A stretch of 64,000 bases of DNA, taken from NCBI GenBank assembly GCA_028713125.1, contig JAQTOU010000001.1, positions 514,273 to 578,272 of the forward strand, read 5' to 3'. The DNA is from Elusimicrobiales bacterium. GTDB taxonomy: Bacteria > Elusimicrobiota > Elusimicrobia > Elusimicrobiales > UBA9959. The notes under the pieces are model-generated. The model made no database searches, was not told where the DNA came from, and was given only the letters and a program-made list of their open reading frames with translations. The translations under genes were made by a program, and so were the position numbers. Shown here piece after piece: positions 8,508 through 51,463 of the stretch. Positions within the stretch are counted from its first letter, which is position 1. The number at the start of each line of letters is the position of its first letter.

Positions 8508-10706
8508 TTAAATTTTCGCGCGCTTAAGCCTGAGGGAATTCATTACCACCGAAATAGAACTGAGCGCCATAGCGGCGCCGGCCGCGGAGGGCGGGATGAC
8601 CACGCCCCACTTCGGATAAAAGACCCCGGCGGCCATCGGGATAAGAACGATATTGTAAGCGAAGGCCCACGCCAAATTCTGGTTGATAGTCCTCTTTATC
8701 CTCTTCGAGATCCTGACCGCGGTTATCACGGAGCGCAGGTCATTGTTCATCAAGGTGATGTCGCTCGAGTGCACGGCCACGTCGGTGCCGGAACGCATCG
8801 CCATACCGAGGTCGGCCTCGGAAAGAGCGGGCGCGTCGTTGAAGCCGTCGCCCACCATCGCGGTGCGCTTGCCCAGGGCTTTGTAGCGCATCACCAGCCG
8901 GCGCTTCTCCTCGGGGAAGATCTCGGCGTGGAAAGTCTTTATTCCGACGGCGGCGGCCGCATGGGCCACCACGGCCTGCCGGTCGCCGGAGGCCATCACC
9001 GGCTCTATGCCCATGGCTTCGAGTTCTTTGATTATTTCTGCGGCCTCGGGGCGCAGTACGTCGGCCAGGCGGCCGTAGCCCATGAATTTCCCGTCGAGCG
9101 CGGCGAGCAGCATGGAGTCGGAGGAAGCGGTGATCTCGGCGCGGACGGCCGGCGGGACCGGCAGGGGCAGCTCGTCGAACCATTTAAGGCTGCCCACCAC
9201 CATCTCCCCCCCGGCGGCATGGGCGCGGACGCCTTTGCCCGGCACGGCTTCAAAAGCGGTAAGCGCGAGCGGCTTTACCTTTGCTTCCTTGGCCTGGCGG
9301 CGCACGGCCTCGGCGAAAGGGTGCTCGGATTTCTCCTCGGCGGAGGAAAGAAGCTGCAGCAATTTTTTCTCGGTAGTCTCGAAAGGGTGCAGGCTTTCCA
9401 GGCGCATCCGGCCCTCTGTCACGGTCCCGGTCTTGTCGAAGATCACGACGTCCACGCCCGAGGCGCGCTCGAGCACGTCGGCATTGCGGATAAGTATCCC
9501 GGCGGAAGCGGCCCGGCCGAAGCCGACGGCGACGGCCATCGGAACCGCCAGGCCCATCGCGCAGGGGCAGGCCACGGCGAGCACCGCGGCGAAAATTCCG
9601 GCGGCCCGCGCGAGATCGTAATAATGGAACCAGAACGCCGCGGCCGTGGCGGCTATCAGGAATACCGCGGGCACGAACCAGGCTGAGATCCTGTCCACCA
9701 TATGCTGCACTGCGCTCTTCTCGGCCTGGCTTTCTTCTACGGCGGTTACGATCTTCATCAGGACCGTGTCTTCACCCACGCCCTCGGCGGTGAATTCGAG
9801 CGCGCCGGTCTTGTTTATGGTCCCGGCATAGACGCGCGCGCCGGCTTCTTTCTCGACGGGAACCACTTCGCCGGTAAGGAGGCTTTCGTCCATTGCGGAG
9901 GAGCCGCCCGTCACCCTGCCGTCCACGGGGACCTGCTCGCCGGGGCGAAGCAGGACCAAATCGCCGGGAACTATCTCGGCCACGGGCACGGTCTGCTCCT
10001 TGCCGTCTTTAAGGCGGCGGGCGAACTTGGGCGCTATCTTGAAAAGCTTGGCCACGGCCTCGCCTGCCTTGTTCTTTGAACGGGCCTCCAGCCAGCGGCC
10101 GAGGTTTATAAAGGTCACCAGCATGCCCACTTCATGCCACTGGGCGTGGTAGTGCATCCCGCTGCCGGGGAAGATTGTGACGAAGACGCCGTAAAAATAA
10201 GTGACGCTTGTGCTGAGCGAGACCAGCGAGTTCATGTCGGCGGTATGGGCCTTAAGCGCGCGCAGGAAGCCCTGGTGGAAATGCTTGCCGGCGAACCACC
10301 AGGCGAGCCCGGCGACGGTCATCATCGCGTAAGGGTTTATCGGAGAGACCAGGTCGAGCAGGAGGAAGCTGGTAAGGAGCAGGCCGAGCAGGAAGCGCTT
10401 AAGGAAAACGTTCTTTTCCCGCTCCAGCTCTTTCAGGGCGGTATTCTCGGCGGCGCCGGCCGATTCGGAGAAGGCCAGGGCTTTATAGCCGAGCTCCTCT
10501 ATCCTGCCGGAGATAAGCCCGGAATTTGCAAGGGCCGGGTCATAGGAAAGGAAAGCCGTGCGGGAAGGGAGGTTGACGGACACGCCGGCCACGCCGGGCA
10601 GGGAGTTAAGGCCGTTCTCGAGCCGGGCCACGCAGGAGGCGCAATGAACGCCCTCGAGCGGTATGACCGCGCGCTTGAATTTTTTCTCCGGTACGGCTTT
10701 GTCCAT
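8508..10706 (-). CDS. copA: Cu(I)-translocating P-type ATPase
   Basis: 732 residues. One N-terminal heavy-metal-associated domain (GVHCASC, C22/C25), then transmembrane helices, the TGE loop (LTGEVVPVEK), the ACPCAMG ion-site motif, DKTGTVTEG phosphorylation site, SEHPFAEA, GDRQAV and MVGDGFNDAPAL. The last two helices carry YN (FAYNIVLIP) and M-SS (MALSSISVV), the Cu+ set. It exports copper across the inner membrane. It lies between a lipoprotein protease gene (6-bp gap) and queF; no CopZ or CueR-type gene is close. Confidence 0.93.
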   Translation of the reverse strand: MDKAVPEKKFKRAVIPLEGVHCASCVARLENGLNSLPGVAGVSVNLPSRTAFLSYDPALANSGLISGRIEELGYKALAFSESAGAAENTALKELEREKNVFLKRFLLGLLLTSFLLLDLVSPINPYAMMTVAGLAWWFAGKHFHQGFLRALKAHTADMNSLVSLSTSVTYFYGVFVTIFPGSGMHYHAQWHEVGMLVTFINLGRWLEARSKNKAGEAVAKLFKIAPKFARRLKDGKEQTVPVAEIVPGDLVLLRPGEQVPVDGRVTGGSSAMDESLLTGEVVPVEKEAGARVYAGTINKTGALEFTAEGVGEDTVLMKIVTAVEESQAEKSAVQHMVDRISAWFVPAVFLIAATAAAFWFHYYDLARAAGIFAAVLAVACPCAMGLAVPMAVAVGFGRAASAGILIRNADVLERASGVDVVIFDKTGTVTEGRMRLESLHPFETTEKKLLQLLSSAEEKSEHPFAEAVRRQAKEAKVKPLALTAFEAVPGKGVRAHAAGGEMVVGSLKWFDELPLPVPPAVRAEITASSDSMLLAALDGKFMGYGRLADVLRPEAAEIIKELEAMGIEPVMASGDRQAVVAHAAAAVGIKTFHAEIFPEEKRRLVMRYKALGKRTAMVGDGFNDAPALSEADLGMAMRSGTDVAVHSSDITLMNNDLRSVITAVRISKRIKRTINQNLAWAFAYNIVLIPMAAGVFYPKWGVVIPPSAAGAAMALSSISVVMNSLRLKRAKI

Positions 10707-39053: not shown

Positions 39054-40205
39054 TTACTCTTCGCAGTAAGCCAGGAAATAGGCGGTTCCGGCCAGCCCGC
39101 AGACGAAAGCGGCGAGCAGGTTGAGCCTGGGCGAGACGCTCCACAGGAAGCCCCCCGCGATAACGGCGGCCGCCACCACGGTGTCCCGGACGAAATAGTA
39201 AGCCCCGTAGGTCAAAGCCTTGTTCTCCTCGGGGGCCAGGTCCAGGATCAGCGCTTTGCGGGCCGGCTCTCCGAATTCCTTGAAGCCCCTTATGATAAAA
39301 GCGAAAACCAGCGCGTAAAGCGACCTGGAGAACAGAAGCACCAGCGGGAAAGCGGAAAAGAAAGCGAAAGTCACGGCTATATAGGGCTTTTTTGTCTTTG
39401 TCTTTTCTACCAGCCACGCCACCGGGACATAGATAAGGATAGCGGAAACCATCTCGATGCTTGTGAGCCACCCGAACTGCACCGGCGAGACGCCTATGCC
39501 TTTGATGCACCAGATCACCACGAAAGCGTAAGGGATCTGTTCGCAGAAACGTATCAGGATGTCGGAGACGAGCAGGGACTTTAGCCGCGGCCCGGTTCGG
39601 GCGAGGACCTTCAGCGGGTTTTTCTCCATTTGCGCCGCGGCCGGTTCCGCGACATGCTCCAGGAAATAATGCTGCAGAAGCAGGGCGAGGACGGACAGGA
39701 AGAGGGCGAAAGTGAAAGCGATCCTTACCCCGTCCTTTACCCCCCAGCTCTGCACGCAGTAGCCGCCCAACAAAGGCCCCACGGCCATAGGGATGCGGCG
39801 GGCGATGGAGTGCATGGAGACGCCCATGGTCCTTTTATGGAAAGGGAGCAGCTTGGAGATCGCGCCCATGATGGCGGGGAGCGAGACCGAGGACCAGGCT
39901 ATGAACAGCACCGCCCCGGCGAGGGCGGCCTGCCAGGACGGGAAGAAAATGACGATAAGGTAGCCGGCCACCGCGGCCAGGTTGAACAGGAGCAGCGACC
40001 TCTTGTAGCCGATGCGGTCGCTGAGATAGCCGCCGGGGAAGGAGTAGACGGCGCCCAGGAAATTATCGGCCGCGTTGAGGAAACCCACCGCGAGGCTGGT
40101 CCCGCCCAGGGCCATTATGTAAAGAGGCAGGAACCGCTCTCCCATCTTCTCCCCCATCTCTATAAGGACGGCGGCCGAGAGGAGGACCAGCAGGTTCTTT
40201 TTCAT
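39054..40205 (-). CDS. MFS transporter
   Basis: 383 residues with about 12 transmembrane helices. Motif A reads GGYLSDRIGYKRSLLLFNLA between helices 2 and 3; helix 4-5 has GAVLFIAWSSVSLPAIMGAI. It belongs to the major facilitator superfamily; the drug/sugar subfamily cannot be decided. The start overlaps the stop of the M15-like gene upstream (40205), so the two are translationally coupled. Confidence 0.85.
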   Translation of the reverse strand: MKKNLLVLLSAAVLIEMGEKMGERFLPLYIMALGGTSLAVGFLNAADNFLGAVYSFPGGYLSDRIGYKRSLLLFNLAAVAGYLIVIFFPSWQAALAGAVLFIAWSSVSLPAIMGAISKLLPFHKRTMGVSMHSIARRIPMAVGPLLGGYCVQSWGVKDGVRIAFTFALFLSVLALLLQHYFLEHVAEPAAAQMEKNPLKVLARTGPRLKSLLVSDILIRFCEQIPYAFVVIWCIKGIGVSPVQFGWLTSIEMVSAILIYVPVAWLVEKTKTKKPYIAVTFAFFSAFPLVLLFSRSLYALVFAFIIRGFKEFGEPARKALILDLAPEENKALTYGAYYFVRDTVVAAAVIAGGFLWSVSPRLNLLAAFVCGLAGTAYFLAYCEE

Positions 40206-41041
40206 CAGGATCTTTTCTTCGCGGGAGGAGGTTTGGAAACGGTCTTGCGCGCCGGCGCCGACAGCTTGCCGGGAGCGGCCTTCCGGGGAGAGCGGACTGT
40301 CTTGCGGCGGGCGCGGCGGCGCGGCGGGCGGCTCACCACCCAGTAGCGGCTTTTGCCGACGTCCAGGTGGGTGAACCCCTTGTAAGGATAATAGCCTACC
40401 CCGCCGACGGCGAGTTTCTGGCCGAATTTCTTGACCTTAGTGGAACTGTAGCCGGGGATCTTTATGTCCGCGGCCCAGCCGAGCATATGCATGCTGTGCT
40501 TCGCCGCGCCGGGGATCTTCCCGTTAAGCTTCGGCGTGCGGTAGCCGCTTAAAATAATAAGTCCCTTTTTGCCGAACTTATCTTCCACCGCGTCCAGCAG
40601 CTCGACCAGTTTTACGGCCATCAGCGTCTCGCGCCCGGTCAGGCGGCAGCGCATGAAATGGTTCAGTTTATCCAGGACCTCTCCGTCGTAGGTTCCGTCC
40701 GCCAGGCGGTAGCGGAAGCTGTGTTTCTCCCCTGTATCGTTGCGGGTCAGCGTCAAATTGCCGTTGCCGCCCAGGTTTACCGGCTCCGGGGTATGCGCCA
40801 TCGCGCTGCTGATAAAAAGATAGGCATCGGAATCCTCGCCTTCCTCCAGGTCCCGCACGTCGTCTTCGGTAACCGGCGAAGTGTCAGGCGCGACGAAGTA
40901 GTCGGGGCTGAAGGCCAGCTGGTCGAGGAAGGTGGCCGAGTTAAGCTCTATGGATTCCGTAGTGACAGGTCCGGGCCCCTGCGCGCGGACCGGGGCCGGA
41001 GGGAGGAACAGGGAGAAGATAAGGACAAAGAAGTATTTCAT
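40205..41041 (-). CDS. Secreted M15/DUF882 (YcbK-like) peptidase-fold protein
   Basis: About 278 residues with a signal peptide (MKYFFVLIFSLFLPPAPVRA). The C-terminal domain (about 110-230) has LSGYRTPKLNGKIPG, the motif H-S-M-H-M (AKHSMHMLGWAADIKIPG) with the H...D pair, and GVGYYPYKGFTHLDVG; these are the zinc ligands of the M15/DUF882 fold. It ends in an Arg/Lys/Pro-rich tail. The family acts on peptidoglycan peptides. ATG 41041 begins the signal peptide; a TTG 4 codons earlier is less likely. Confidence 0.8.
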   Translation of the reverse strand: MKYFFVLIFSLFLPPAPVRAQGPGPVTTESIELNSATFLDQLAFSPDYFVAPDTSPVTEDDVRDLEEGEDSDAYLFISSAMAHTPEPVNLGGNGNLTLTRNDTGEKHSFRYRLADGTYDGEVLDKLNHFMRCRLTGRETLMAVKLVELLDAVEDKFGKKGLIILSGYRTPKLNGKIPGAAKHSMHMLGWAADIKIPGYSSTKVKKFGQKLAVGGVGYYPYKGFTHLDVGKSRYWVVSRPPRRRARRKTVRSPRKAAPGKLSAPARKTVSKPPPAKKRS

Positions 41042-41090
41042 GCGGCGAAGCAATATTTTACCAAATACGCCGCGCGCCGGGGCTAAGGAG

Positions 41091-41501
41091 CTATTTACCT
41101 GGAGTGGTTACGCTGAAAGTGGAGTGTTTTACGCCCCTGACCGATTTCAGGGCGTCGGCGAGCGCTTTAACTTTCGCGCCGGGGCCTTTTACGGCTATTA
41201 TTTCAAGGCAGTTGTCCTGGTCCAGCTGCGCCCGCTGGGAGGAAATGACCACGGCCATAGCGGCGCGCTGCAGCGCAAGCAGCCGGCCCGCGGTCTCGCG
41301 CCGGCGGGGGTCGAACACCACGGTAATTGCGCCGGCCACGGTACCGCCGCGCGCGAAAGCGTCCGAGACGAATTCCTTCCGTATCAGGTCCGCGATAGCC
41401 TTAGAGCGGTTGCAAGAGCCTTCAGCGCCGATGAAAGCGTCGAACTTCCGGAGGAGCTCCCCCTCCAGCGAAACGCCGAACCTTACCAGTTTGTCTTTCA
41501 T
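41091..41501 (-). CDS. NikR-family ribbon-helix-helix regulator with altered metal site
   Basis: 136 residues. N-terminal ribbon-helix-helix (KLVRFGVSLEGELLRKFDAF...NRSKAIADLIRKEF) and a C-terminal ACT-like domain (GAITVVFDPRRRETAGRLLA, NCLEIIAVKGPG, VRGVKHSTFS). In E. coli NikR nickel is held by H76, H87, H89 and C95; by alignment these are R79, R90, Q92 and C98 here, so only the Cys remains. A perfect dyad GTGTTAC-N13-GTAACAC lies just upstream (41503-41529), suggesting autoregulation. It probably responds to a different ligand or represses constitutively. Confidence 0.8.
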   Translation of the reverse strand: MKDKLVRFGVSLEGELLRKFDAFIGAEGSCNRSKAIADLIRKEFVSDAFARGGTVAGAITVVFDPRRRETAGRLLALQRAAMAVVISSQRAQLDQDNCLEIIAVKGPGAKVKALADALKSVRGVKHSTFSVTTPGK

Positions 41502-41502
41502 A

Positions 41503-41529
41503 GTGTTACCTTTGCATAAAGAGTAACAC
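41503..41529 (-). promoter_or_regulatory. NikR-type dyad operator
   Basis: GTGTTAC (41503-41509), a 13-nt spacer and GTAACAC (41523-41529), perfect 7-bp arms 1 nt upstream of the NikR-like start codon. The same half-sites and spacing have been reported for the Geobacter NikR operator. Confidence 0.75.
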
Positions 41530-41573
41530 AAAAAAGGCTCTTGGTCAAACCGGCGTTCCGCGGAAGACCGGGG

Positions 41574-43415
41574 TCAGAGGAACCTGACGCTGAGCCCGCA
41601 TTTAAGCACCCTGCCGGGCAGCGGATAATAGCCGTTGACGGTGTCGGCGGTCTGGGCGTAATGAGCGTCCAGCACATTATCCGCCCCGGCGAAGAGCTCG
41701 AAGCTGTCCAGCGTCTTGGAAAAGTACAGGTCCGCGCTCAGGTAGGACGGGAGCTTCAGGCCGCCCTCGTCCGCCGCGGTGTACTGCCTTTCGCTGTAGT
41801 AGGCTTTCGCGCGTATATCCGCAAGGGAGGTTTTAATTTCGGCGTTAAGGCTGAAGCGGTTCCTCGGGCTGAAAGGCAGCAATTTATAAGTCCCGGAAGT
41901 CCGGCCTTTGCTGATATTATGAACGTAGCCGAGCCCGGCGCTGAAGGCGGAGCTTTTATACCCGAGCGAGGCTTCAGCCCCCCTGTTAAAGCCGGAATCC
42001 AGGTTGTACGCCGCCCAGCTCTTTAAAGGGTCGAGGGCGATGCGGTCTTTTACGTCCGAGTAATACAAGCCGAGCGAAGCCCGGACCCCCGAGCTGAAAG
42101 CCGCGGAAACCCCGGCCTGCGTCTGCCAGGAATGCTCCGGCTTCAGGTCCGGCGAGCGGTCGGCCGCGGGGACCCACGGGTTGTAAAGATCGGCGAAAGT
42201 GGGCGCCTGCCAGGCGCGCCCGGCCTGCGCCGAGAATTTCCAGACGAAGTCCGGCGAGTAGATGACCGAGAGCCGCGGGCTGGACTGGTCGGCGTAGCCG
42301 ACGTTCCTGTCGTACCTGTAGGACGGGATGACGCTCAGGCCCTTCAGCGGCGCCAGGGTCAGCTGCCCGAAAAGCCCGGTGTTCTGCCTGAAGTGGTCTC
42401 CGTAGGTATCCGATTTCAGCAGGCCCTTTTCATACTCTATCCCGCATTCAGCTTTATTGAAGAAAGAAAAGCCAAGCATGGCCCTGTTGGTCAGCGTGCG
42501 CGTCAGCTCGTCGCTCCAGGCATTATGGGAAAAGAACCTGCTTACGCCGGAGTCGCCCTCAAGTTTGTACCTGCTGTTCTCCGTCAGAGGCATGTCGAGC
42601 GCGACCCGGCCCAGCCCGAGGCTGGAGCGCTGCAGGTCGGTCAGGGAATTAGCGGAGCGCTCGCGCCTCCCGTTCCAGTCTTCGACGGGCACGGGCGTTC
42701 CGCCGGGAACGCCGTTCTCCGAGTTATTCCTCAGCGCGTTGAAGGTAAGCTTTCCGTCCTTTCCTACCGCCAGTGAGGCTTTCCCGGTGAAGGATTCTTT
42801 GCGGGAAGCCGAGTTGCGCTGAAACCCCGAGGAGGCGTCCCGCGCCGCGCCCAGCGCGGTTTTGAACCGGCCGGCGGCGCCCATGAACGAGACCGTATTG
42901 GCAGTCCCGCCGTAAGACGACAGGACCGTCCCAAGTTCCGCGTGCTTTACCCCCTCGTTGGGGCTGCGGCTCACGAAATTTATCACGCCGCCCTCGGCGT
43001 TCGCGCCCTGCACCGAGGACCAGGCGCCGGGCAGGATCTCCACCCTCTCTATCCCGGCCGCGGGAAGCGCTGAAAGGTCGACGGTTCCGGTTATATCGGC
43101 GGGGATGCGCATCCCGTCGAAAAGCACCGCGGTCTGCCTGGCCGCGAAGCCCCTCATGCCGGCGGAGGCGAGGCCCGCCGCCCCGTTGGTCCGCCTCAGC
43201 AGCACCGGGAAGCCGGTTTCAAGCAGGTCCCCGGCCGAAGAAGCCGACGCGCTCCGGGCGCGGGGGATATAGAGGGTCACGGCGTCCGCCGGTTTCGGGA
43301 CGCTTTTCAGCGAAGATTTACTGACGGAGAGATAAACTTCTCCGTTTTCTTCGGAATAAGCCGGGACACAGAGGGCAAGGATGACAGCAAGGAATACAGC
43401 AGGCGCTTTTTTCAT
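41574..43415 (-). CDS. TonB-dependent outer-membrane receptor (BtuB-like)
   Basis: 613 residues with a signal peptide (MKKAPAVFLAVILALCVPAYS). The plug domain runs VTLYIPRARSASASSAGDLL, AGLASAGMRGFAARQTAVLF, GMRIPADITGTVDLSALP and IERVEILPGAWSSVQGANAEGGVINFV. The 22-strand barrel follows and the protein ends PLPGRVLKCGLSVRFL. A cobalamin riboswitch directly upstream indicates uptake of a corrinoid. GGAGG lies 5 nt before ATG 43415. No btuCDF or TonB genes are in the window. Confidence 0.9.
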   Translation of the reverse strand: MKKAPAVFLAVILALCVPAYSEENGEVYLSVSKSSLKSVPKPADAVTLYIPRARSASASSAGDLLETGFPVLLRRTNGAAGLASAGMRGFAARQTAVLFDGMRIPADITGTVDLSALPAAGIERVEILPGAWSSVQGANAEGGVINFVSRSPNEGVKHAELGTVLSSYGGTANTVSFMGAAGRFKTALGAARDASSGFQRNSASRKESFTGKASLAVGKDGKLTFNALRNNSENGVPGGTPVPVEDWNGRRERSANSLTDLQRSSLGLGRVALDMPLTENSRYKLEGDSGVSRFFSHNAWSDELTRTLTNRAMLGFSFFNKAECGIEYEKGLLKSDTYGDHFRQNTGLFGQLTLAPLKGLSVIPSYRYDRNVGYADQSSPRLSVIYSPDFVWKFSAQAGRAWQAPTFADLYNPWVPAADRSPDLKPEHSWQTQAGVSAAFSSGVRASLGLYYSDVKDRIALDPLKSWAAYNLDSGFNRGAEASLGYKSSAFSAGLGYVHNISKGRTSGTYKLLPFSPRNRFSLNAEIKTSLADIRAKAYYSERQYTAADEGGLKLPSYLSADLYFSKTLDSFELFAGADNVLDAHYAQTADTVNGYYPLPGRVLKCGLSVRFL

Positions 43416-43429
43416 TTTTCCTCCCGCGA

Positions 43430-43592
43430 GAGTAGCCGCGCCATGACAAAGGCGGCTTCCTCGTGAAAGGAGTTCCGTCCCTCGCAGGCTGCGACTATTC
43501 CGGCGGTAGACCGGGCTTGGTCCGCCAGGGGCGGACCTCACCGTTGCGGGGCAGCGCCGGATTCACACCGGCTTCCTCCGCCAGAACGATAT
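43430..43592 (-). promoter_or_regulatory. Cobalamin riboswitch
   Basis: On the minus strand the leader holds GGAAGCCGGTGTGAATCC followed by GGCGCTGCCCCGCAACGGTG, the B12-box core, with flanking stems GGTCCGCC...GGCGGACC and a 3' stem close to the ribosome site (GGAGG). It should block translation of the receptor when adenosylcobalamin is abundant. A TATAAT box lies at 43599-43594. Confidence 0.92.
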
Positions 43593-43593
43593 T

Positions 43594-43599
43594 ATTATA
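43594..43599 (-). promoter_or_regulatory. -10 box for the riboswitch leader
   Basis: TATAAT on the minus strand immediately upstream of the riboswitch; a matching -35 is not clear. Confidence 0.5.
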
Positions 43600-43750
43600 C
43601 CAAACTTGATTTTAGTCGTAGTGCAAAAGGCCTAAAGGCGGCTGGGCCCAATAACATCGGTGAAATAGGCCTATGCGCCCATAAGGAATAGTCTGTAAAT
43701 GGATATTATTGTAATTGAAGCGAACCCGTACATTTAAGGAGAGTTACCGA

Positions 43751-45265: not shown

Positions 45266-47557
45266 TCAGTTCTTTTCCTTGTAGCCTTTAAGCGCGTACC
45301 AGGCCTGGCCCAGCGCTATCCCGCCGTCGTTGGCGGGGACCTGGCGGTTTGTATAAACGGTCAAACCCGCTTTTTGCAGGCCCGCCGTCACGAGCTCCAG
45401 CAGCACCCGGTTCTGGAAAACCCCGCCCGAAAGACAGACGGACTTAAGGCCGGACTGCCGCGCAAGAACGCGGGCGGCTTCGACGGCGGCGCCCGCTATG
45501 CCGGAATGGAGCCGCGCGGAGATAAGGGCCAGCGGCCTGCCGGCCAGCCTGTCGGCCACTACGGACCTGACGGCCGGGGCCGGGTCGATCTCGAGGCCGG
45601 AGGGACCGGCGGAGATCCTGAAATTATAGCCGGGCCCGGGCCTGGTCCCGGGAAGCAGGCTTTCCAGTTCCATAGGCCCCTGGGCTTCGTAGGTAGCTTC
45701 CGCCCTGATACCGGCGAGAAAGCTGAAAGCGTCCAAAAGGCGGCCCATGCTGGAAGTCTGCGGGCAGTTCACGCCTGAATCAAGCATGCGCTCCACCGTA
45801 GCGGCCCGGCGGGAGGGAACGGCGGCGAAGAGACTGCCGGCGGCGCGGCGCCAGCCGGGGCCGAAAGCGTCCTTGACCAGGGCGAGAGCGGGGCGCCAGA
45901 TCTCGAGCGCCGCGATATCCCCGCCGGGCAGGCCGAAGTATTTCAAATGCCCGGCCCGGCGCCAGGTCTTCTTATCGAAGAGAAGAAACTCGGAACCCCA
46001 GATCTTCCCGTCGGTGCCGTAGCCGGTCCCGTCGAAAGCCAGGCCGAGGAAAGGACCGTCGAGGCCGTGCTCCGCCGCGACGCTGAGCGCGTGCGCGGCG
46101 TGGTGCTGCACGGCGAGCTTCCTGCCCGGCAGGGACCTGGCGAGCCCGGAGGAAGCGTAGTCGGGGTGCAGGTCGTGGGCCGTCAGCGCCGGGCGGACTT
46201 TCAGCAGGCGGCCGAGGTTCGCGAGCGTCTCGCGGAAGAATTCCTGGTTCAGGGGCTCGGAGAGGTCGCCTATATGCTGCGACAGGAAAGCTTCCTTTCC
46301 CCGCGTAAAGCAGAAAGCGTTCTTAAGATCGGCCCCGCAGGCCAGGACCTGCCTCCCGCCGGAGGAAAGCTTCACGGCCGAAGGCACGAAACCGCGCGCG
46401 CGGCGGGCCAGGCGCAGCTCTCCGGCCGCCTCGAAAGCTACGCTGTCGTCGGCACGGTTGTGGATGGGGCGGTCATGGGAAAGGGTGAAAGAGGCCGGCC
46501 CGGAAAGCCGCTTCCCGGCTTCGGCCAGGTCTTTGCAGATCGGCTCGTCGCGGAAATTCCCGGAGGTCATGACGAGCGGGCCGGCGAAGCCTTTCTTTTC
46601 CAGCAGCGCGAAGAGCGCGGCGTGCAGCGGCGTGTAAGGCAGCATGACGCCCAGTTTAGAAAGCCCGGGCGCAGCCGCCTCTAATTCCCGGGAGCGCCGG
46701 CGGAGCATGACCACGGGAGCTTCCGGTGAAATTAGAGCCGCCGCCTCGAGCGCGGAGACCCGGCAGTATTTGCGCGCGGCGGCGAGGGAGGGCAGCATTA
46801 CGGCAAAAGGCTTGTGCGGGCGGCGCTTCGCGGCGCGCAGCCTGGCGACCGCGGCCTTGTCGTCGGCGCGGCAGGCAAGGTGGAAGCCGCCCAGGCTTTG
46901 CAGCGCTCCCGTCCTGCCGGAGATAAGCAGCTCGGCGGCCTTCTCAAGAGCAGCGGCGCCGAGCAGCGGTTTCCCCCCGGCCTCCAGCTTCAGGGAAGGC
47001 CCGCAGGCCGGGCAGGCGTTCGGCTGGGCGTGAAAACGGCGGTCCAGCGGGTCCCTGTACTCGCGCAGGCAAGCGGGGCACATTGAAAAACCCGCCATCG
47101 TAGTGAACGGGCGGTCGTAAGGCACGGTTTTAACTATAGTGTAGCGCGGGCCGCAATTCGTGCAATTAGTGAAAGGGTAAAGATAACGCCTGTCGGAAGG
47201 GTCCAGCAAGTCCCCGAGGCAGTCGGCGCAGAGCGCGAGGTCGGCGGGAATGATGGCGGAGGCCGGCGCCCTGCCGCCGCTTTTAGCGATGGAGAAATCT
47301 TTTTGCCCGGCGGGCGAGAGGTCGGAGGAAGAGACCGAATCTATCCTGGCTGCCGCCGGCTTGCGCCTGCTCAGCTCCCTGATAAACTTCCCGACGCCGG
47401 CCGCGGGGCCCTCTGCTTCGATGGTCACCCCCGAGGCGTCGTTCTTCACCCAGCCGCCCAGCGCTCCCTCGAGGGCCAGTTTATAAACATGCGGCCTGAA
47501 ACCGACGCCCTGCACGACGCCGGTGATCAATATTTTTTTTCTTATTATGCGGGCCAT
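45266..47557 (-). CDS. hypF: Hydrogenase maturation carbamoyltransferase HypF
   Basis: 763 residues. An N-terminal acylphosphatase domain (GVVQGVGFRPHVYKLA), two zinc fingers (CADCLGDLLDPSDRRY...CTNCGPRY and CPACLREY...CPACGPS), a YrdC-like domain (PHKPFAVMLPSLAA), and a Kae1-like C-terminal part (VQHHAAHALSVAAEHG, CLSGGVFQNRVLLELV, ANDGGIALGQ). It makes the CN ligands of the [NiFe] active site from carbamoyl phosphate with HypE. It is the last gene of the hyp operon. Confidence 0.96.
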   Translation of the reverse strand: MARIIRKKILITGVVQGVGFRPHVYKLALEGALGGWVKNDASGVTIEAEGPAAGVGKFIRELSRRKPAAARIDSVSSSDLSPAGQKDFSIAKSGGRAPASAIIPADLALCADCLGDLLDPSDRRYLYPFTNCTNCGPRYTIVKTVPYDRPFTTMAGFSMCPACLREYRDPLDRRFHAQPNACPACGPSLKLEAGGKPLLGAAALEKAAELLISGRTGALQSLGGFHLACRADDKAAVARLRAAKRRPHKPFAVMLPSLAAARKYCRVSALEAAALISPEAPVVMLRRRSRELEAAAPGLSKLGVMLPYTPLHAALFALLEKKGFAGPLVMTSGNFRDEPICKDLAEAGKRLSGPASFTLSHDRPIHNRADDSVAFEAAGELRLARRARGFVPSAVKLSSGGRQVLACGADLKNAFCFTRGKEAFLSQHIGDLSEPLNQEFFRETLANLGRLLKVRPALTAHDLHPDYASSGLARSLPGRKLAVQHHAAHALSVAAEHGLDGPFLGLAFDGTGYGTDGKIWGSEFLLFDKKTWRRAGHLKYFGLPGGDIAALEIWRPALALVKDAFGPGWRRAAGSLFAAVPSRRAATVERMLDSGVNCPQTSSMGRLLDAFSFLAGIRAEATYEAQGPMELESLLPGTRPGPGYNFRISAGPSGLEIDPAPAVRSVVADRLAGRPLALISARLHSGIAGAAVEAARVLARQSGLKSVCLSGGVFQNRVLLELVTAGLQKAGLTVYTNRQVPANDGGIALGQAWYALKGYKEKN

Positions 47558-47569
47558 TGGACCAGCCGG

Positions 47570-48391
47570 CTACTTCCCCGTAGTTACCTCGCCTTTCGCG
47601 TAGTCCAGCTCGCTGCCGAACATGCTGTGCGGGACAAGGTAAACGGCGAAAGTGACGATCACGGCCAAAATTATCCACGGCTTGTGGTTCTTTTGCTTCA
47701 GCACTGCGAACAGGGCGGGGAGCCAGAAGACCAGCATGATAAGGGTCTTGTTATCGGTAAGGTCCATCCCGAAAGGGAAACCGGTCCAGGCCTGACCGAA
47801 AGCGTACTGCTGTACTATAGGGCCGAACAGGAAACCGCCCAGGAGCAGGAAACCGAGGTTGAGAACGACGGCTTGCTTCACTACGATGTCCCCCGCGAAC
47901 AGCGAGAGGAAAATGCGCACGGAAAAGAACATGAACGAGAAGATAAAGACTATATGGGGCAGGAGGGCCCAAATAGGCACGGCGCCTTTGAAGCGCGTCA
48001 CCACCGGGGTTTTAGAGAGTTCCTGGTCGATCGAGATGTCTCCCCCCGGTGTATGAAGAAAAACACGATATTCGAGCTTGCCTGCCGGGGGCTGGCCGGG
48101 GAGCGAACCGGAGAGAACGCCGTCCGCGTACTCCATTTCCGCCTTAAGCGGCTCGTCGGAGCTCTTGTAGCGCTTCCAGAGGATGTAGCCCTGCAGGGGA
48201 ACGGCTGATTTGACCTTCATCACGCAGTCCGCGCCGCCCACGGTGCAGCTGCGCGGGAAGCGGTAGGAAATTTCCGAGCTGCCGTAGGAGGCATGCCCTC
48301 TTACCGGGTAAGTAGGACCGGTCATGCGCTGGAACATCGCGAAAGCTAGCGTTATAATGAAACTCAGTATCCAAAGCGTATTTTTTTTCAT
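47570..48391 (-). CDS. Membrane protein of unknown function inside the hyp operon
   Basis: 273 residues. An N-terminal transmembrane helix (LWILSFIITLAFAMFQRM), a periplasmic beta domain of about 120 residues (YPVRGHASYGSSEISYRFPR, MKVKSAVPLQGYILWKRYKS, LEYRVFLHTPGGDI), then four to five transmembrane helices (WALLPHIVFIFSFMFFSVRI, GFLLLGGFLFGPIVQQY, ILAVIVTFAVYLVPHSMF). It lies between hypE (22 bp) and hypF (12 bp). The position suggests a link to hydrogenase maturation or electron transfer, but the family is not recognised. Confidence 0.8.
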   Translation of the reverse strand: MKKNTLWILSFIITLAFAMFQRMTGPTYPVRGHASYGSSEISYRFPRSCTVGGADCVMKVKSAVPLQGYILWKRYKSSDEPLKAEMEYADGVLSGSLPGQPPAGKLEYRVFLHTPGGDISIDQELSKTPVVTRFKGAVPIWALLPHIVFIFSFMFFSVRIFLSLFAGDIVVKQAVVLNLGFLLLGGFLFGPIVQQYAFGQAWTGFPFGMDLTDNKTLIMLVFWLPALFAVLKQKNHKPWIILAVIVTFAVYLVPHSMFGSELDYAKGEVTTGK

Positions 48392-50335: not shown

Positions 50336-51463
50336 TCAGCCTCCGTACTTGAACCAGGCCGCGCAGGCTCCCTCGGAGGAGACCATGCACGGGCCCACGG
50401 CGTTTGAAGGGGTGCAGGCTTTGCCGAAAAGCGGGCAGTCCGGCGGGAGGGCCTTGCCCAGGAGTATCGTCCCGCAAAGGCAGCCTTTGGGCTCGGGCGC
50501 TTCCCTATATTCGATCTTGAACCGCTTGACGGCGTCGAAGGAGGCGTAGGCTTTCGAGAACTCAAGGCCGGTGTTCCCGACCCGGCCGATAGCGCGCCAG
50601 GTAGCGGCTGAAACGGAGAAGACTTCCTTCATGAGCTTCAGCGCGGCCGGATTGCCTTCGGCGCGCACGGCCCTGAAATATTCATCCTCCACGAGCGGCT
50701 TACCCGAGACGACCTGCTTGAGCAGCATGCTTATCCCGGACAGGATATCCAGCGGCTCGAAGCCGGTGACGACGCACGGGACGCGGTGCTTCTCCGCGAC
50801 GAATTTGTAGGGCGCGGTCCCGATTATCGCGCTTACATGGCCGGGAAGCATGAAGCCGTGGATCTTGTTCTCCGGGTCCGAAAGCAGCAGCTCCAGGGCG
50901 GGAGGGACCAGTTTGAAGAAAGCGGTGGAGGAGAAATTCTTCAGGCCAAGCTTCTTCGCCCGGACCACCGCCCCGCCGATCACCGGGGCCGTGGTTTCGA
51001 AGCCCACGCCGATAAAGACCACTTGCCGCGAAGGCTCGGCCGCGGCCATGGCCACCGCGTCCAGCGGGGAGTAGACCACGCGGATATCCGCGCCGCGCTC
51101 GCGCGCCGAACCGAGGTCGAGGCCTTTCGAGCCTTTTACCTTGAGCATATCGCCGAACGTGGCGATTATTACGCCCGGGACCGCGGCCAGGGCGAGGACC
51201 CTGTCGATATCGCCCTGCGAGGTGACGCAGACGGGGCAGCCCGGGCCGGAGAGCATCCGCAGTTCCTTCGGGAAAAGCCTGCGCATCCCGCTTGCGGCTA
51301 TGGCCATGGTATGCGTGCCGCAGACCTCCATGAAATTCACGGTTCCGCCGGTTTTAGAAGCGGCTTCGGCGGCCAGCCTGGTTATTTCGGAAATAGCGGA
51401 GGCGGCGAGGGCGCGGTCGCGCCACAGCGGAGAGGAAAAGCGTTCGGCGGGAGAGGCCTTCAT
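50336..51463 (-). CDS. hypD: Hydrogenase maturation protein HypD
   Basis: 375 residues. MEVCGTHTMAI, SGPGCPVCVT (redox CxxC), GFETTAPV, PGHVSAIIG and VVTGFEPLDI, and the C-terminal iron-sulfur cysteines (KGCLCGTILLG, CPLFGKACTPSNAVGPCMVS). It assembles Fe(CN)2CO with HypC. It overlaps the hypC end by 4 nt. Confidence 0.96.
   Translation of the reverse strand: MKASPAERFSSPLWRDRALAASAISEITRLAAEAASKTGGTVNFMEVCGTHTMAIAASGMRRLFPKELRMLSGPGCPVCVTSQGDIDRVLALAAVPGVIIATFGDMLKVKGSKGLDLGSARERGADIRVVYSPLDAVAMAAAEPSRQVVFIGVGFETTAPVIGGAVVRAKKLGLKNFSSTAFFKLVPPALELLLSDPENKIHGFMLPGHVSAIIGTAPYKFVAEKHRVPCVVTGFEPLDILSGISMLLKQVVSGKPLVEDEYFRAVRAEGNPAALKLMKEVFSVSAATWRAIGRVGNTGLEFSKAYASFDAVKRFKIEYREAPEPKGCLCGTILLGKALPPDCPLFGKACTPSNAVGPCMVSSEGACAAWFKYGG

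Follow-up and report, generated by a model that had tools for sequence, protein, structure and literature searches.

The closest described systems are the NikR proteins of Escherichia coli, Pyrococcus horikoshii and Helicobacter pylori and the NikR regulon of the Geobacter type. In E. coli NikR the high-affinity nickel ligands are His76, His87, His89 and Cys95 (PMC7055735), a set abbreviated here as HHHC, and H. pylori NikR binds DNA with a Kd of 4.5 nM with nickel versus 4.9 uM in the apo form (PMC9860126). The published delta-proteobacterial NikR site is GTGTTAC-[N13/14]-GTAACAC, which occurs exactly in G. metallireducens (PMC545781). The orthologue described here is encoded by an Elusimicrobiales bacterium within a 64,000-nucleotide stretch of DNA (the window), and departs from a well-known regulator in a modestly surprising way: three of its four ligands are replaced, and a perfect operator lies at its own start.

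The NikR-like protein and its operator

The features of the locus are as follows.

39054-40205, minus strand: MFS permease gene, also found after nikR in the sister genome G012 (Pfam, synteny)
40205-41053, minus strand: M15-type peptidase gene directly downstream of nikR (Pfam, synteny)
41091-41501, minus strand: nikR orthologue, 136 aa, ATG start (translation, Pfam/NCBIfam, alignment, constraint by region)
41503-41529, minus strand: NikR-type dyad GTGTTACTCTTTATGCAAAGGTAACAC, no mismatches to GTGTTAC-N13-GTAACAC, conserved at nikR in relatives
41520-41548, minus strand: putative nikR promoter, read from the sequence and compared with relatives
41574-43415, minus strand: gene for a BtuB-like TonB-dependent receptor, the upstream neighbour of nikR, with its start placed at an internal ATG (Pfam Plug and beta-barrel; NCBIfam TonB-B12 below cut-off)
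43467-43603, minus strand: AdoCbl (B12) riboswitch ahead of the TonB receptor gene (Rfam RF01482, 64.6 bits)
45266-47557, minus strand: hypF, part of the conserved hyp-TonB-nikR neighbourhood (Pfam, synteny)
50336-51463, minus strand: hypD, of the same neighbourhood (Pfam)

The 136-aa protein matches the Pfam NikR_C domain (1.5e-21) and, at 122.7 bits against a cut-off of 105, the NCBIfam NikR equivalog NF003381; its best PDB match is P. horikoshii NikR (2bj1, 1e-25). The ribbon-helix-helix DNA-binding domain (about residues 1-50) is intact and the ACT-like C-terminal domain is present, as expected of a NikR. In an AlphaFold2 model (mean pLDDT 82, for a monomer and from an input alignment of mostly HHHC proteins) the C-terminal fold is predicted to be retained, with a TM score of 0.9 to 2y3y and 1q5y. 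A TTG start upstream of the ATG, at the operator, is a mechanical ORF call, and the ATG was taken as the start.

Alignment to the P. horikoshii and H. pylori proteins places R79, R90, Q92 and C98 at the positions of E. coli H76, H87, H89 and C95, just as the original prediction had read them, so that the square-planar nickel site is lacking. Seven of the eight C-terminal histidines are gone, H126 alone being left. The octahedral or potassium site (E30/D34) is likewise changed, to K34/D38, although K or Q at the E30-aligned position is also found in the HHHC orthologues and is thus a clade feature. A sequence error masking the histidines is very unlikely, given an open frame and 17 separate replacements where conservation is otherwise 90% or more, and is further disfavoured by similar losses in four other assemblies. 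Despite its nickel-responsive NCBIfam name, the known site in this protein is almost certainly unable to bind nickel, and its residues predict that nickel-dependent DNA binding is absent. That nickel or another metal is still sensed through different residues, such as Cys98 together with backbone or linker groups, is a most improbable alternative: C98 and Q78 are retained, but the histidines are nearly all lost and the sister protein in G012 lacks the cysteine too.

The dyad ends one base before the nikR ATG, overlaps the putative -10 and includes the AAAGG ribosome-binding sequence. The putative promoter consists of a -35 TTGACC (41548-41543), a 17-bp spacer and a -10 TACTCT (41525-41520) lying in the left half-site; in relatives the -10 is mostly TACTAT, and the window version is therefore weakened. 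Half-sites and spacing are identical to those of the Geobacter-type operator (PMC545781), in agreement with what had been proposed for the site. With spacers of 11-16 scanned, no other exact copy occurs in the 39 contigs (3.48 Mb) of the genome, so the search for further copies that had been suggested found none. The next-best N13 sites carry three mismatches and number 20, versus 57 for a backwards control pattern; because the control gives more, these looser matches are background. Sites with N14 and at most two mismatches number 3, versus 4 in the control, and the reversed half-site orientation gave no matches in the genome. A wider dyad regulon in this genome was accordingly rejected, no other site being above background, as was a second NikR sharing the operator, since none is encoded.

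Across the genus almost all nikR orthologues, whether or not they encode an HHHC protein, have the dyad immediately upstream, usually preceded by a TTGAC -35 and with its left half-site overlapping the -10. With at most one mismatch it occurs once per genome, at nikR, apart from two sites in G029, which has two nikR copies. There is no dyad at nikR in G023, G006 and G025b, where the gene stands behind hypF or behind a gene for RND efflux, and in G012 the operator has two mismatches and the -35 is altered. The dyad is thus the ancestral nikR auto-operator of the genus and accompanies, in most cases, an intact HHHC protein; the perfect operator beside the ligand-less protein is inherited. As a sign of new function it was rejected; the pairing that had first drawn attention to the locus is real but less remarkable than it appeared.

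Repeated ligand loss and transporter linkage

Orthologues are present in most members of the genus. The HHHC set is kept in 28 full-length orthologues, which are 64-75% identical to the window protein, and in a G008 copy truncated by a contig end. Five orthologues have lost ligands: that of the window genome (G000, RRQC), G012 (HRQL), G023 (RRRC), G021 (HHQC) and GWA2_51_34 (YRHC). None of these five genes contains a stop or frameshift. Elsewhere in the genus the gene itself has been damaged. In G003, all that is left of nikR behind a perfect dyad is a stub of 31 aa, and a deletion (L106, reverse strand from base 9635) fuses the stub, out of frame, to the start of a NicO-like permease gene; in G018 (L118:5672-5882) there is no nikR between the TonB receptor and NicO-like genes, and only a decayed dyad, GTGTCACTATTTAAGCTGAGGTAGGAC, is left. 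Ligand-less NikR proteins were not found in the titles, abstract beginnings and passages of the open literature that were searched.

The proxy tree, ((G000,G012)79,G027)95, was built from an alignment that took in the neighbouring LysR regulator gene (first labelled HypE, with no effect on the alignment); a protein tree with an archaeal outgroup was distorted and was left out of the placement. R90, Q92 and the downstream MFS gene are common to G000 and G012, and part of the ligand loss may therefore predate their split.

The replaced pocket had suggested a ligand switch, in which an organic or corrinoid effector has taken over the old metal site and governs the regulation of nikR and its neighbours. 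We consider this quite unlikely. The five ligand-loss proteins have no new site in common, and the recurrent changes are mostly single-step, for example H to R; nor does the genome hold another copy of the dyad that could define a new regulon. In its favour, a B12-controlled receptor adjoins nikR. The corrinoid label of that receptor is sound, because the AdoCbl riboswitch is present in the window and at the receptor gene of the four relatives checked (L033, L034, L038 and L095), and both the receptor and the hyp genes (hypF, hypD) are near nikR as had been noted. The same B12 receptor neighbourhood is, however, found in genomes with intact NikR; the closeness of receptor and hyp genes to nikR is an inherited gene order and does not speak for a new ligand.

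The common gene order in the genus is hypD, lysR, a gene without assigned name, hypF, a C11 peptidase gene (reverse), the TonB receptor gene, nikR, in some cases a beta-barrel protein gene, in some cases a NicO-like permease gene or CbiM/NikM-Q-O, and the M15 peptidase gene. The product encoded between hypF and lysR (window 47570-48391, minus strand) is a 273-aa protein found genus-wide with no Pfam or NCBIfam match. In G016 the nikR operon is followed by an Rfam nhaA-I RNA motif (L095:10994-11042).

In most relatives a nickel transporter gene thus stands between nikR and the M15 peptidase gene, and in the window there is none. The window genome has no member of the CbiM/NikM family and no standard NicO; its NicO-like permease gene is at C11:697231, about 140 kb from nikR, and carries no dyad, so that control of nickel uptake genes, as expected of a NikR, was not found. 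The NicO-like permease is probably a nickel transporter, judging from its position and histidine-rich loop. Such His-rich permeases (for example L095:9225-9929) are widespread in the NikR operons of the genus and have no Pfam or NCBIfam match. Genes of the NiFe-hydrogenase family are retained in all genomes searched.

We scored a nikR gene as linked where it stands with a direct NikM/NicO system, an RND efflux gene, an ECF S-component, or a TonB receptor and a Gate-type permease. By this definition HHHC is found in 27 of 27 linked genes versus one of six unlinked (Fisher p 2.5e-5), and, with only nickel transporters counted as linked, in 20/20 versus 8/13 (p 0.005); these p-values are indicative, since the classes were drawn after seeing the loci and the genomes are not independent. 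All five ligand-loss genes are unlinked. The sixth unlinked gene, that of G027, the next relative in the proxy tree, encodes an HHHC protein with no transporter downstream, and together with the tree suggests that transporter loss preceded ligand loss. Similar losses have therefore arisen several times in the genus, nearly always with nikR no longer beside a transporter gene. At three loci (L047:8001-11603, L041:8001-11289 and L098:8001-11602) an HHHC nikR is followed by genes for a TonB receptor and a permease with a Gate domain (PF07670, below cut-off), a set that is possibly an undescribed nickel uptake operon.

Constraint on the regulator and its likely fate

Constraint was compared among residues 1-50, 61-100 and 101-136 at positions at least 90% conserved in the 28 HHHC orthologues. 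The window protein departs at 14 of 30 such positions in 61-100, compared with 1/28 in 1-50 and 2/22 in 101-136 (Fisher p 2e-4 and 5.5e-3). Pooled, the five ligand-loss proteins depart at 4/140, 58/150 and 8/110 in order along the chain (p 3e-15 and 3e-9); HHHC proteins left out one at a time show 0-2 N-terminal departures and a median of one C-terminal. Since the sites were equally conserved beforehand and the departures are unequal, relaxation is confined to the metal region; the DNA-binding domain and distal C-terminal half are as conserved as in the nickel-binding orthologues. In a codon model, omega on the window-genome branch is 0.014, 0.43 and 0.06 for the three regions, with backgrounds of 0.06-0.08, and residues 61-100 differ from background with 2dlnL 33.7; because the model used a coarse grid and divergence at synonymous sites is high, the contrast deserves more trust than the omega values themselves. 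A value of one is rejected in all three regions (2dlnL 156, 25 and 79), and the open frame too is unlike that of a pseudogene.

These results bear on the possibility, which we regard as unlikely though it deserves some weight, that the gene is decaying: NikR would have become purposeless after the transporter moved and would be drifting, its sensor site lost first. The truncated gene behind a retained operator in G003, the missing gene and decayed dyad of G018, and the weakened promoter elements of G000 and G012 are what such decay could look like. Conservation on either side of the metal region, the intact frames of all five ligand-loss genes and the perfect window dyad argue against it. The fast yet non-neutral evolution of residues 61-100 would also suit a switch of ligand, as would the existence in the genus of a second family, named NikR2 here, which shows that ligand-less proteins of this kind can be stable.

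NikR2 is present in many members of the genus and in two sister genera, and is absent from the window genome. In all 20 copies examined every nickel ligand is missing and two cysteines are invariant; an auto-dyad, TCATAY-N14-GTATGA or a close variant, was found in 15 of 19 upstream regions. In most loci the gene (L055:5976-6396, L105:8559-8993, L044:12846-13257, L028-L031 and L054-L067) is followed by genes for a TonB receptor and for a membrane protein of some 550 aa that has no annotation. Descent of the window protein from NikR2 was rejected, because the two are about 36% identical (36-40% at most), far below the identity to HHHC orthologues. NikR2 may be a stronger candidate than the window protein for a NikR with a new ligand. 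As to the suggestion that the latter is a ligand-switched descendant, these comparisons give good support to a nickel-binding ancestor, a lost metal site and a retained auto-operator; the switch itself is disfavoured by replacement residues that differ among lineages.

We think it rather probable that the window protein is a sensor-dead NikR, uncoupled from nickel transport and kept as a metal-independent autorepressor. Synteny and operator conservation show that the ancestral NikR acted on the dyad over its own promoter, the nickel-bound form, by analogy with intact orthologues, repressing an operon of nikR, in some cases an outer membrane protein gene, and the nickel transporter gene. In the window lineage the transporter gene would then have left the operon, a step to which transporter linkage, the tree and the codon model all point; nickel responsiveness would have had no linked target, and the metal site would thus have been released from selection. 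Most likely the remaining tetramer would still occupy its one operator, which spans the -10 and ribosome-binding sequence, in the absence of nickel; nikR would then be constantly repressed by its own product, and the downstream peptidase gene perhaps along with it. Several observations count against autorepression by this protein. Canonical apo-NikR is about a thousandfold weaker on DNA, so that binding by the metal-free protein might be too weak to have any effect; G000 has a weakened -10, the operator is mismatched and the -35 changed in G012, and nikR is destroyed in G003 and G018; and an omega below one in residues 61-100 leaves room for some remaining constraint there.

An extension of the autorepressor reading, that NikR has repeatedly become a metal-independent repressor with its operator kept and with arginines mimicking the nickel charge and locking the DNA-binding form, is unlikely, and that arginines in place of histidines could replace the metal charge is speculation. 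If true, it would provide a natural series of metalloregulators with metal sensing switched off and function kept. The genus in any case supplies close orthologues with nearly the same operator and with sensors that range from intact through partly to fully lost, so that the fate of a metalloregulator after its target transporter leaves can be tested directly; it also shows that an equivalog model can call a protein nickel-responsive although the metal site is lost.

Comparison with known systems

The window protein resembles the NikR proteins of E. coli, P. horikoshii and H. pylori in its ribbon-helix-helix and ACT-like domains and its NikR-type operator, and differs from them in its high-affinity ligands, in the loss of nearly all C-terminal histidines and in the lysine at E30 of the potassium site, a position at which most of the clade has K or Q. 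Its dyad is that of the Geobacter-type regulon (PMC545781), where the site mostly precedes a nickel transporter or hydrogenase operon, whereas the window site precedes nikR only and the transporter gene is elsewhere. With the HHHC proteins of its own genus it has the same dyad and, in many, the hyp-TonB-nikR neighbourhood; unlike it, they keep all four ligands, and their genes are linked to a transporter gene everywhere except in G027. NikR2 likewise combines a NikR fold lacking nickel ligands with an auto-dyad at its own start, but is set apart by the sequence of that dyad, its invariant cysteines and a different adjacent TonB receptor.
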